Positions 141 to 42,772 of a DNA stretch of 64,000 nucleotides are shown here, piece after piece. The notes beneath the pieces are model-generated. The model saw only the letters and a program-made list of their open reading frames with translations, ran no database searches and was not told the origin of the DNA. The stretch spans positions 1 to 64,000 of the forward strand of contig NZ_PPTR01000014.1 in NCBI RefSeq assembly GCF_003339845.1, given 5' to 3'. Source of the stretch: Gordonibacter sp. 28C (GTDB lineage Bacteria; Actinomycetota; Coriobacteriia; Coriobacteriales; Eggerthellaceae). A program made the translations under genes and the position numbers. The stretch's first letter is position 1, and every line of letters starts with the position of its first letter.

Positions 141-1409
141 CTACCCGAACAGCGCCAGTAGGTACACGTTCGCCAGCAAAACGGTTGCGACCATGAGGGG
201 GAACCCTATCTTCAGGTAGCCGATGAACGTAACGGGATGCCCTTCCCGATTACCCATGGACGACAGAACGATGTTCGCGCTCGCGCCGACGAGCGTGCCG
301 TTGCCACCCAGGCAGGCGCCCAGCGACACCGCCCACCACAAAGGCGCGATGTCGGTGCCGCCCGCGCCGAGCGCCAGCACGATGGGAATGATGGTGGCGA
401 CGAAGGGGATGTTGTCGAGCACGGCAGACACCAAGGCGCTCGCCCACAGCAGAACCACCATGGTCAAAACGACGTCCCCGGCCGTGGCCGCGGCGATCGC
501 CTGCGCCAAAAGCCCGATGACGCCCGTCTCGACCAACCCGCCCACGACGATGAACAGACCGGCGAAAAAGCCAATGGTGGTCCACTCCACGTCCGTCACG
601 ACCTGCTCGATGCTCGTCCTCGTCACCACCAGCATGACGGCCGCTGCCGAAAGCGCGATAACGCCCGATTCGACGCCCAGGACCTCGTGGAAGGAGAACG
701 CCACCGCCACGACGCCCACCATGGTGATGCTCTTCGCGAACAAGCCGCGATCGAGGATGTATGCGCGCTCGTCGAGCGCCATGACGGCCTCGATCCTGCT
801 TGCGGCGGCCGTCAACTTCCTTCCGCCCAGCACCCACAGGTAGGCGACCAAAAACGCGAGCGCCACCGCCACGATGGGCCCGTTGACGACGACGAAGTCC
901 AGAAAGCCCAGGTTCGCCGCCGACCCCACCATGATGTTGGGTGGGTCGCCGATGAGCGTCGCGGTTCCTCCGATGTTCGAAGCCGCGATCTGCGAGATCA
1001 AAAACGGCACCGGATCGACCTCCAGCATCCGGCAGATGGTCAGCGTCATGGGACCTATGAGCAGCACGGTCGTGACGTTGTCGAGCAAGGCGGACAACAC
1101 GGCGGTGATCAGTATGAACGCCACCATGATGCGCCAAGGGCTCCCCTTCGCGATCTTGGCCGCCTTGACGGCCACGAACTGGAACAAGCCCGACGGCTTC
1201 ATGCAAGCGACGAGCAGCATCATGCCCAACAGCACGCCGAGCGTGTTGAAGTCGATGCACGCCACGCCGGCCTCGAAATCGAGCACGCCGACGAAGACGA
1301 GCACCATCGCGCCGATGAGAGCGGCCGTGCAGCGGTGGACCTTTTCGGTCACGACCAGGGCCATGACGCCCGCGAACACGGCGATGGCAGTGATTTGCTG
1401 AAAAGACAT
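141..1409 (-). CDS. Ion-transporter superfamily permease (ArsB/NhaD/SLC13-like)
   Basis: The 422-residue, strongly hydrophobic protein has roughly 10-12 membrane segments. It shows the two pseudo-repeat signatures of the ArsB/NhaD branch: GGTATLIGDPPNIMVG near residue 145 and GGNGTLVGASANIV near residue 370. Family members are secondary carriers for anions or Na+/H+ exchange; the substrate here cannot be read. It is the third gene of a leftward cluster after the decarboxylase (2999-3970) and a second carrier (1536-2945), so import of the acid or export of its product is a reasonable inference. The 126-bp gap before it holds an 11-bp inverted repeat. Confidence 0.85.
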   Translation of the reverse strand: MSFQQITAIAVFAGVMALVVTEKVHRCTAALIGAMVLVFVGVLDFEAGVACIDFNTLGVLLGMMLLVACMKPSGLFQFVAVKAAKIAKGSPWRIMVAFILITAVLSALLDNVTTVLLIGPMTLTICRMLEVDPVPFLISQIAASNIGGTATLIGDPPNIMVGSAANLGFLDFVVVNGPIVAVALAFLVAYLWVLGGRKLTAAASRIEAVMALDERAYILDRGLFAKSITMVGVVAVAFSFHEVLGVESGVIALSAAAVMLVVTRTSIEQVVTDVEWTTIGFFAGLFIVVGGLVETGVIGLLAQAIAAATAGDVVLTMVVLLWASALVSAVLDNIPFVATIIPIVLALGAGGTDIAPLWWAVSLGACLGGNGTLVGASANIVLSSMGNREGHPVTFIGYLKIGFPLMVATVLLANVYLLALFG

Positions 1410-17059: not shown

Positions 17060-17100
17060 CGAACGAAGGCCCTGCCCCCCCCCCGCAGGACCTTCGTTCG
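17060..17100. repeat. Long hairpin with a poly-C loop
   Basis: CGAACGAAGG-c-CCTGC pairs with GCAGG-a-CCTTCGTTCG (one mismatch) around a homopolymer of C; in all ten C occur in a row from 17075. It is non-coding. Homopolymers of this length are slippage-prone, so its length may vary between isolates. Confidence 0.55.
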
Positions 17101-17148: not shown

Positions 17149-17221
17149 GGGCCGAGGGGGCCGTGCAGTGCGACGAACTTTCGCGAAGTGTGTGAGGAGT
17201 ACTGCACGGCCCCCTCGGCCC
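17149..17221. repeat. 21-bp perfect inverted repeat with 31-base loop
   Basis: The 21 bases at 17149-17169 are exactly complementary to 17201-17221, with no mismatch. The loop contains a smaller palindrome (ACTT-TCGCG-AAGT). The element sits between the hairpins above and the terminator of the infC operon. It could be a very stable RNA hairpin, a small RNA, or the remnant of a palindromic mobile unit. Confidence 0.6.
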
Positions 17222-17294: not shown

Positions 17295-17648
17295 CTACAG
17301 GGCCTTCTTCGCCACTTCCACCACGGCGGTGAACGCCGCAGGGTCGTTGACGGCCATGTCGGAGAGCACCTTGCGATCCAGCTGCACGCCGGCCTTCTTC
17401 AGGCCGTTCATCAGCACGGAGTAGCTCAGGCCGTTGATGCGGGCGGCCGCGTTGATGCGGGTGATCCACAGGCGGCGGATCTCGCGCTTCTTGTTGCGGC
17501 GATCGCGGTACATGTACTGCAGCGAGTGCTGCACCTGCTCCTTCGCGGCACGGTAGGAGCGGGACTTCGCGCCGTAGTAGCCCTTGGCGCGAGTAAGAAC
17601 GGTGCGACGCTTCTTATGGGCGTTGACTGCACGCTTGACACGAGGCAT
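17295..17648 (-). CDS. rplT: 50S ribosomal protein L20
   Basis: The 117-residue basic protein starts [18 protein letters not shown] and contains [19 protein letters not shown] and [16 protein letters not shown], the diagnostic L20 sequences. It binds 23S rRNA early in large-subunit assembly; in many bacteria L20 also represses its own operon. It is the last gene of infC-rpmI-rplT, 20 bases after rpmI. Confidence 0.98.
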
Positions 17649-17668: not shown

Positions 17669-17866
17669 TTAGCGAAGCCCGAGGTTGCGGGCGATGACCT
17701 TCTGGTCGGACTTGGCCACTTCGGTCTCGTGGCGGAAATTGCGCTTGCGCTTCTGGCTCTTCTTCGTCATGATGTGGCTCTTGAACGCCTTGGAGCGCAT
17801 GATCTTGCCGGAACCGGTGACGCGGAAACGCTTCGCGGTGCCGCGATGGGTCTTCATCTTAGGCAT
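17669..17866 (-). CDS. rpmI: 50S ribosomal protein L35
   Basis: The 65-residue protein [18 protein letters not shown] is unmistakable L35. The ATG overlaps the infC stop as TAATG (shared A at 17866), so translation is probably coupled to IF3. Confidence 0.98.
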
Positions 17867-18441
17867 TACTCGTCCTTCCCTTCAGCTTCCTTCTTCTCGT
17901 TTTCCTTTTTCTTCTTCGCCGCCACCACCGAAGGCAGGGGAGCGATGAGCATGTGCATGTTGCGGCCTTCCATCTTGGGCTGGTTCTCGATGACCGCTTC
18001 GTCTTTCAGGTCGTCGGCCAAGCGCTCGAGGATGGTCAGACCCAGTTCCGGGTGCGCCATCTCGCGGCCGCGGAACATGATGGTGATCTTCACCTTGTTG
18101 CCGTCGTCGAGGAAGCGCATGACGTGCTTCTTCTTCGTCGTGTAGTCGCCCACGTCGATCTTCGGCCGGAACTTCATTTCCTTCGTCTCGACCTTGCTCT
18201 GGTTCTTGCGGGCCTGCTTGGCCTTGATGGCCTGGTCGTACTTGAACTTGCCGTAGTCCATGATGCGGCATACGGGCGGTTCTGCGTTCGGCGCGATCTC
18301 CACGAGATCGAGTCCTTGGTTGTCGGCGACCCGCTGGGCCTCCGACGTCACGTAAATGCCCATCTGCTCGCCGTCGAAGCCGATCAAACGGCATTCGCGG
18401 ACGGTAATTTCTTCGTTGAGCCGAGGCTCTTGAGCAGCTAT
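17866..18441 (-). CDS. infC: Translation initiation factor IF-3, probable ATA start
   Basis: The 191-residue product contains the IF3 N-domain ([23 protein letters not shown]), the linker and the C-domain ([19 protein letters not shown]), with a Lys/Glu-rich tail. No ATG is available at the right place. The ribosome site GGGAGGTGA is five bases before an ATA codon (18441-18439), whereas a GTG at 18450 overlaps that site. Rare AUU/AUA/AUC starts are an established feature of infC used for autoregulation, because IF3 discriminates against them. The long leader carries a terminator. Confidence 0.93.
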
Positions 18442-18483
18442 CGCGCTCACCTCCCAATCTTTAAGCGTTTGTCGCGCTTCAAT

Positions 18484-18513
18484 GAAAAACCCGCCGCCTT
18501 GGCAGGCGACGGG
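18484..18513 (-). terminator. Leader terminator (attenuator) upstream of infC
   Basis: On the leftward strand CCCGTCGCC-TGCCAA-GGCGGCGGG forms a 9-bp stem (one U-G pair) followed by TTTTTC. It lies about 43 bases before the infC start and about 105 bases after the predicted transcription start. A terminator inside the leader implies regulated read-through into infC-rpmI-rplT. The pairing partner that would prevent it was not worked out. Confidence 0.8.
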
Positions 18514-18625
18514 TTCGCATTCAGATGACCGGGCCGCATGCGGCCCCGTATTCGAGCGACCCATCAGCAGCCGAAGCGCCGAATCAGGTGGAGGGTCTCC
18601 CCTCGCTTGAGTAAACAACTTGCTT

Positions 18626-18653
18626 ATTCTAACACAGCCGATTTCCAATGCAA
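18626..18653 (-). promoter_or_regulatory. Promoter of the infC operon
   Basis: On the leftward strand TTGCAT (18653-18648) and TAGAAT (18631-18626) are separated by 16 bases, inside a locally AT-rich patch. The predicted start near 18619 gives an untranslated leader of about 178 bases containing the attenuator. Confidence 0.8.
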
Positions 18654-42348: not shown

Positions 42349-42492
42349 ATTCGGTGTGCCTCCATCCGTTTCTCTCTCAAAGCGCCCCTTTCGACTGACC
42401 TAGTCTTTGCCCCCACACTCGCGCACCGGAGCCCAAGCTTGCACCGGGAACCCTCTCGCCCGTCGCGGCCGTATGTCGCGTTTGTAAACGGG

Positions 42493-42553
42493 CGGTGCGA
42501 CTTACCTCTAGGATGCGCCATGATCGCCGACCGACCGAGCCGGTGCGACTTAC
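42493..42553. repeat. 13-bp direct repeat CGGTGCGACTTAC
   Basis: Perfect copies at 42493-42505 and 42541-42553, 48 bp apart, in the 572-bp region between the binding-protein gene and comF. Possibly paired regulator sites; no gene is supported in 42349-42770. Confidence 0.5.
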
Positions 42554-42772
42554 GTGGATCCTTTCGACCGCATCTGCCATGGACTTGGGGCAAACGCCCC
42601 GCAACTACAGACTCGAAAGAAGCACCGTTCAGTTTACCAGATAGGGAAAACCCTCGGAAGCACAGCCCCCAGAAACGCACGAATAGGTCCGGAGGAGCGC
42701 TACCGTTCGCATTCGCCATCTTGTACGCGGGCCGGAGTCGAAGCGGCTTCGCACGGCGGCCGCACGATCATG

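Follow-up and report, generated by a model that had tools for sequence, protein, structure and literature searches.

Why should an intrinsic terminator stand just ahead of an infC gene that appears to start with ATA? The question is raised by the minus strand of contig NZ_PPTR01000014.1 of Gordonibacter sp. 28C (assembly GCF_003339845.1), of which positions 1 to 64,000, here called the window, were analysed. A first-pass annotation of this locus had proposed two layers of control, attenuation in the leader that depends on L20 or on the ribosome and start-codon discrimination by initiation factor IF3, and as far as the nucleotide sequence can speak to it this reading is supported. We propose, with a probability of roughly 0.85, that this leader is homologous to L20 leaders of the Bacillus type, carrying a terminator that would be controlled by ribosomal protein L20, and that an AUA-based feedback by IF3 is added to it. 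The mechanism would be of a known kind; novelty probably lies in the phylum, in the divergence of the sequence and in the identity of the Streptomyces RNA Scr1601. Among open-licence papers we found no report of this leader in Coriobacteriia.

The genes infC, rpmI and rplT form a tight minus-strand cluster in which infC and rpmI overlap by one base, and the encoded IF3 shares 98% identity with that of G. pamelaeae. The features discussed below are collected in Table 1.

Table 1. Features of the infC leader and its operon in the window, in order of transcription.
Feature	Position	Strand	Basis
Promoter: -35 TTGCAT, 16-nt spacer, extended -10 TGTTAGAAT	18626..18653	-	sequence; conservation of -10
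L20-leader-like core, model R1 65.4 bits	18553..18611	-	covariation; the window's core is among the 47 training rows of R1
AA dimer	18607..18608	-	in 86/86 A2 rows, selected by a model expecting AA
Hairpin P1, GAGGG/CCCUC	18591..18604	-	covariation
Helix H2: base ACC/GGU (18587-18589 with 18559-18561), inner CGGCGC/GC-U-GCUG stem	18559..18589	-	covariation, fold
Antiterminator 5' strand, overlapping the 3' strand of H2	18556..18568	-	duplex, fold, co-variation test
Variable hairpin GGGCCGCATGCGGCCC inside the antiterminator	18531..18546	-	sequence, fold
Terminator 5' arm (antiterminator 3' strand), able to pair with 18556-18568	18506..18518	-	duplex, fold, co-variation test
Intrinsic terminator, 13-bp stem and U tract	18485..18516	-	sequence; terminator in 112/128 core-bearing leaders
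Shine-Dalgarno GGGAGGTGA, with in-frame GTG 18450 inside	18447..18455	-	sequence; relatives similar
ATA start codon of infC	18439..18441	-	sequence; assigned start in 88/90 Eggerthellaceae loci
infC (translation initiation factor IF3, 191 residues from ATA)	17866..18441	-	TIGR00168, 234.9 bits, and translation
rpmI (ribosomal protein L35)	17669..17866	-	TIGR00001
rplT (ribosomal protein L20, proposed ligand)	17295..17648	-	TIGR01032

Promoter and terminator of the leader

The near-consensus promoter of the first-pass annotation stands in part. Its -10 element, TAGAAT, matches five of six consensus positions and carries the extended TG; "near-consensus" is nevertheless generous, the -35 element TTGCAT matching only three of six, and a simple promoter scan at a threshold of 9/12 reported no promoter here. 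A -10 of at least 4/6 occurs in the same interval of 82 of 86 Eggerthellaceae leaders, 57 of them with TG, against means of 31 and 2.5, respectively, in letter-shuffled upstream DNA, and the distance of the extended -10 is nearly constant among relatives. The leader length of ~178 nt presumes a transcription start ~7 nt after the -10, placed from sequence. The strong terminator that had been claimed 43 bases before infC is found at 18485-18516: on the minus strand, 18516-18485 reads GAACCCGTCGCCT-GCCA-AGGCGGCGGGTTTTT, followed by 43 bases to ATA. A U-tract terminator lies after the core described below in 112 of the 128 Coriobacteriia leaders that have this core (83 of 86 in Eggerthellaceae); the script, which misses complex stems, detected none in the other 16. 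With the terminator in 112/128 leaders and ATA in 88/90 Eggerthellaceae loci, the arrangement of the leader is not a matter of chance.

A covarying core upstream of infC

The leaders share a core whose consensus runs AAG, G-rich hairpin, CCACCU, CGGC...GCUG stem, GGU. Cores were collected with a search pattern that required AAG, CACCT and GGT and kept the best-folding candidate, which found 128 of 140 loci. From 97 non-redundant cores, 47 were picked for short P1 loops and spread to give alignment A1, in which the invariance of AAG, CACCT and GGT is by construction but the pairing of P1 and of inner H2 was not demanded. Standard pairs fill 97.3% of paired cells in A1 against 89.3% after shuffling, and the covariation score is 0.318 against 0.168, with 0 of 500 shuffles as high; shifting the partners by one, two or three columns makes it collapse. 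RNAalifold, run unaided on A1, returned P1, the H2 base, four of the six inner H2 pairs and two further pairs.

A covariance model trained on the Coriobacteriia cores of A1, termed R1, was then the source of a second alignment, A2, of 86 R1 matches. A2 is fitted to R1 and hence biased towards it, and it holds one stray wrong-strand row (L121) that was kept in the covariation and element counts. Its covariation score is 0.313 against 0.155 shuffled. The AA dimer is present in 86/86 rows and the two C-G pairs in 86/86 and 85/86, in rows chosen by a model that expects these elements; 25 of the 86 rows fail the pattern by which the training cores were picked. At the H2 base the A-U pair is replaced by G-C in locus L165 and by G-U in L142 and L143, loci that the pattern had missed, and the G-C pair is the form found in the Rfam L20_leader consensus. 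We read these changes as covariation at the proposed L20 site.

Two other readings of conserved words were dropped. A leader peptide seemed unlikely, as the AUG of GAUGGGU is missing from rows with GUCUGGU and similar. The word CUGGUCGAG of the deep clade, which we had taken to resemble 23S rRNA, was compared with rRNA locus L221, where GGTCGAG occurs solely between 16S and 23S; the 23S there reads CUGGUCAAG after AGCUCA.

Relation of the core to known L20 leaders

Mimicry of rRNA by L20 leaders is well studied. The L20 leader fold suggested by the first-pass annotation received a divided answer from covariance searches of the window: the Rfam scan made no L20_leader call (RF00558, gathering cut-off 58.7 bits), whereas the relatives' model R1 scored 65.4 bits, with the window in its training set. 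Weak matches of the window to CC1840, DUF3800-IX and similar families lie over the terminator region, far below their cut-offs, and were rejected. Under strict filters L20_leader exceeded its cut-off in none of the 99 Coriobacteriia genomes; ten of them held 12 weak matches, all away from infC. When 14 Coriobacteriia leaders were scanned singly with Rfam, L20_leader was found in L184 only; that match covers the full model at 31.2 bits, below the cut-off, and its anatomy follows the L20_leader consensus.

Further afield the two models converge on the same sites. In the Firmicutes locus L038, from Acidaminococcus, R1 matches 1352-1407 (15.6 bits) and Rfam L20_leader 1349-1457 (54.4 bits, just below the cut-off); in Actinomycetota locus L237, R1 matches 244-302 (20.5 bits) and L20_leader 193-305 (65.6 bits, above it); and in L255, L20_leader scores 42.9 bits at the R1 site. 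Twenty of 40 other Actinomycetota leaders were scanned with Rfam, and L20_leader reached E≤1 in 11 of them, each time in the leader on the infC strand, with L237 alone above the cut-off. R1 in turn misses L036, which Rfam L20_leader scores at 56.8 bits. This coincidence in L038, L237 and L255, together with the retention of the elements given as conserved in L20 sites, an AA dimer next to two G-C pairs in succession (PMC7247131), supports the suggested fold.

The L20-interacting infC leader of B. subtilis (RF00558) likewise lies upstream of infC-rpmI-rplT. It is described as a hairpin and a following helix, at whose junction the L20 site lies, with an intrinsic terminator after them (PMC6097659, PMC10931766), and it shares the AA dimer and the two consecutive G-C pairs (PMC7247131). 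The sequences differ: the H2 base is mostly ACC/GGU here and GCC/GGC in Rfam L20_leader, and P1 is G-rich here where Rfam has AGAAGC. The host belongs to the phylum Actinomycetota, whereas the B. subtilis RNA, whose terminator is stabilised by L20, is described in PMC6097659 as having a narrow distribution, in Firmicutes. L20 leaders have also been described in Gammaproteobacteria, with a candidate in Deltaproteobacteria (PMC7247131, in part). The Deltaproteobacterial candidate resembles the present leader in a proposed L20 site with an AA dimer and two G-C pairs, and differs in being termed another structural scaffold (same source).

We conclude from these comparisons that the core is probably a homologous, diverged L20 leader that lies outside the Rfam record as curated; it is not filed under RF00558 because the cut-off is not reached. 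The failure of Rfam L20_leader to exceed that cut-off in any of the 99 Coriobacteriia genomes would also suit a different leader that merely resembles L20 leaders, with a core sensing IF3, L35, tRNA or ribosome state and working the same terminator/antiterminator switch, and infC and rpmI do share the operon. We regard another ligand as unlikely, given that differently trained models coincide in L038, L237 and L255, that the elements of the described L20 site are retained, and that L184 is built along the L20_leader consensus.

Mutually exclusive pairings and the proposed switch

Two pairings compete in the leader: the 3' strand of H2 can close that helix or, together with the bases that follow, can pair with the 5' arm of the terminator. 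Partner-swap tests of the latter pairing drew on 104 of the 112 terminator-bearing leaders, 61 of the 104 being kept as representatives; L148, L168, L179, L187, L195, L200, L201 and L208, which have odd cores or terminators, were left out after the terminator results had been seen. In the 61 representatives the leaders' own antiterminator partners gave a mean of -15.95 kcal/mol, a value reached in 0/20000 permutations, whose mean was -12.48 (sd 0.36), and the outcome was 0/20000 both within Eggerthellaceae and within the rest. Control segments had no such effect (P1 strand 542/5000, H2 5' strand 4078/5000). The effect is one of averages: a leader's own partner was the best in 3/61 cases, with a median rank of 11th. 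Shuffle tests of single loci were significant in 55/81, 9/14 and 3/9 leaders of three groups, the last being the deep Coriobacteriia, and support for the antiterminator from this deep group alone is weak because only 3/9 leaders passed.

Computed folds of the window include an alternative antiterminator structure that excludes the terminator. When the 5' arm of the terminator has just been made, the antiterminator is at -45.8 kcal/mol and H2 at -40.3, ~5.5 kcal/mol in favour of the antiterminator; once the whole terminator has been made, the values are -64.0 (antiterminator) and -63.1 (H2), within 1 kcal/mol of each other. A protein acting through stabilisation of H2 would require a predicted balance of this kind. 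An L20-stabilised intrinsic terminator and two alternative leader folds are described for the known system (PMC10931766, in part).

We infer L20 as the ligand, the direction of control and the feedback by IF3. RNA polymerase would first produce hairpin P1 and helix H2. By default the 3' strand of H2 with its following bases (18556-18568) would then pair with the terminator 5' arm (18506-18518), so that the terminator could not close and transcription would continue into infC-rpmI-rplT. L20 in excess of free rRNA would bind the P1/H2 junction and lock H2, which would release the terminator arm and stop transcription, as in Bacillus. Transcripts that read through would be translated from AUA behind the strong Shine-Dalgarno sequence; IF3 should discriminate against AUA, which would provide a second feedback, on IF3 itself.

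A terminator near a gene start can simply insulate the gene, and this one might be an unregulated, fixed leak control or a stop for upstream transcripts, in a leader conserved for mRNA stability or ribosome loading; we hold this to be very improbable, since the terminator is preceded by a promoter with a conserved -10, the antiterminator strands co-vary where control segments do not, and the two folds lie within 1 kcal/mol.

Probable initiation of infC at AUA

The first-pass annotation had placed the start of infC at an ATA five bases after a Shine-Dalgarno sequence, and we find the same arrangement: on the minus strand, GGGAGGTGA (18455-18447) is separated by five bases from ATA (18441-18439). 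A script that scores Shine-Dalgarno sequences assigned the infC start in each of 140 Coriobacteriia loci. By this assignment the start is ATA in 88/90 loci of Eggerthellaceae, the family of the window, and TTG in 2/90 (L141 and L170); ATA in 20/21 and ATT in 1/21 loci of the other families of its order; and ATC (13), ATA (10) or ATT (6) in the remaining 29 loci. ATA, ATT or ATC with a strong Shine-Dalgarno sequence is accordingly the script-assigned start in 138/140 loci. In 40 other Actinomycetota loci the start is ATC in 17, ATA in 11, ATT in 4, TTG in 4 and CTG in 1, with 3 unresolved.

The start of infC in E. coli is AUU. As proposed for the present case, IF3 feedback on infC and L20 autocontrol act there on the same cluster, but L20 controls the translation of the two ribosomal-protein genes and not of infC, according to PMC10931766. 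The infC gene of S. aureus, like that of the window, has an AUA start and an extended Shine-Dalgarno sequence; it belongs to another phylum, and its start was mapped experimentally, by Ribo-Ret (PMC13009471, in part), where ours is placed from sequence. AUH starts of infC are therefore already known, and the AUA here is a conserved case.

Within the window the IF3 reading frame runs for 393 codons without a stop, ~200 of which precede ATA, and a usual start codon occurs somewhere in frame upstream in 61/90 Eggerthellaceae loci. IF3 could on these grounds begin at an upstream in-frame ATG or TTG, or at GTG 18450, with AUA an internal isoleucine codon, and there is hardly any likelihood in this. 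GTG 18450, which the first-pass annotation had named as the start that would overturn its own, lies inside the Shine-Dalgarno sequence. No in-frame upstream ATG, GTG or TTG exists in 29/90 Eggerthellaceae loci, apart from the Shine-Dalgarno GTG in 27 and with none at all in 2; the codons after ATA and the Shine-Dalgarno sequence before it are conserved among the relatives compared, whereas the DNA further upstream is not; ATA itself is retained in 88/90 loci; and in S. aureus ribosome mapping gives an AUA start (PMC13009471, in part).

Distribution of the core

In the genome of the window R1 has a single strong match, at 65.4 bits, the next scoring 14.1 bits. Matches at E≤0.001 occur in 94/99 Coriobacteriia genomes, and in 94/94 of these the best match lies directly upstream of infC on the same strand. 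This placement was compared by script in 56 genomes, where the R1 match lies 87 to 206 bases from the start of the IF3 match, and by eye in 38. The genomes with no R1 match at this threshold are G138, G142, G154, G194 and G223, of which G223 has no IF3 match and G194 a partial one. The 12 loci missed by the search pattern were L142, L143, L164, L165, L191, L193, L197, L205, L207, L209, L213 and L220; R1 recovers L142, L143, L164, L165, L191, L207, L209 and L220 at E≤1e-6, gives L213 an E of 0.11 and L197 one of 0.26, and does not list L193 and L205.

Outside the class, 134 genomes gave an IF3 match, and 40 infC leaders were hand-picked from these, in most cases a single one from each family. 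R1 matched 15/40 of these other Actinomycetota leaders at E≤0.01, all upstream on the infC strand (39 leaders were full-length; L243 comprised 290 bases). A phylum-wide search of whole genomes gave mostly low-scoring R1 matches outside Coriobacteriia. Weaker but well-placed matches occur in Acidimicrobiia-labelled records and in Acidaminococcus, and R1 also matches L055 and L078, from metagenome bins labelled Acidobacteria (labels taken as given), whose leaders resemble those of Acidimicrobiia. Additional matches in G214, G001 and G207, with no convincing infC match nearby, were put down to chance. In the Acidimicrobiia-labelled loci L029, L047, L048, L061 and L065 an R1 match is present but our script, which can miss complex terminators, detected no U-tract terminator beyond it; regulation in these loci may therefore work at a different level.

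Scr1601 and possibly related leaders in Actinomycetota

In L242, from a 9.2-Mb Streptomyces-like Actinomycetota genome, the infC leader is covered by Rfam Scr1601 (RF02830; 171 bits, 245-470, minus strand), and the R1 core (26.3 bits) lies inside it. Scr1601 ends there in an intrinsic terminator, ...GGGGCAUUUUUU, with 87 bases left to the ATC assigned as the start of infC; our terminator script found none in L242 even so. Scr1601 thus coincides with an infC leader and contains the R1 core, but it is annotated as an sRNA and not as a leader, and it is longer and has additional stems separating the core from the terminator. PMC8388888 lists scr1601 in a set of 11 S. coelicolor RNAs whose expression was confirmed and, for the set as a whole, mostly varied with growth phase; a UTR is given there as the location of the S. 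ambofaciens homologue. We infer that Scr1601 is a terminated infC leader.

A similar case may be the 326-nt infC 5' UTR of M. tuberculosis, which is 2.6 (exponential phase) to 4.9 (stationary phase) times as abundant as the gene and is homologous to the infA 5' UTR; the authors cite L20 control in B. subtilis (PMC3207917, in part). On balance we lean towards a wider reading, in which the Bacillus-type L20 leader would be an old element retained throughout Actinomycetota (in Coriobacteriia, Acidimicrobiia, Streptomyces-like and deep lineages) and might extend past this phylum, the Rfam model would be too Firmicutes-like and miss most of its members, and Scr1601, and perhaps the M. tuberculosis infC 5' UTR, would be prematurely terminated transcripts. 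If this is true, the occurrence of a homologous switch in 94/99 Coriobacteriia genomes, and of lower-scoring forms in other Actinomycetota, would place it among the wider ribosomal-protein leaders, and an annotated Streptomyces sRNA would be explained as an attenuated leader. R1 can already serve as a covariance model for this class of gut bacteria.

Other features of the window

The sole Rfam match over its cut-off in the window is a full-length raiA RNA (RF03072) at 42386-42621 on the minus strand, with 143.6 bits. Soon after the end of rplT, at ~17150-17220 on the minus strand, lies a long inverted repeat, GGCCGAGGGGGCCGTGCAGT ... ACTGCACGGCCCCCTCGGCC, and beyond it, at 17075-17084, a run of ten G.
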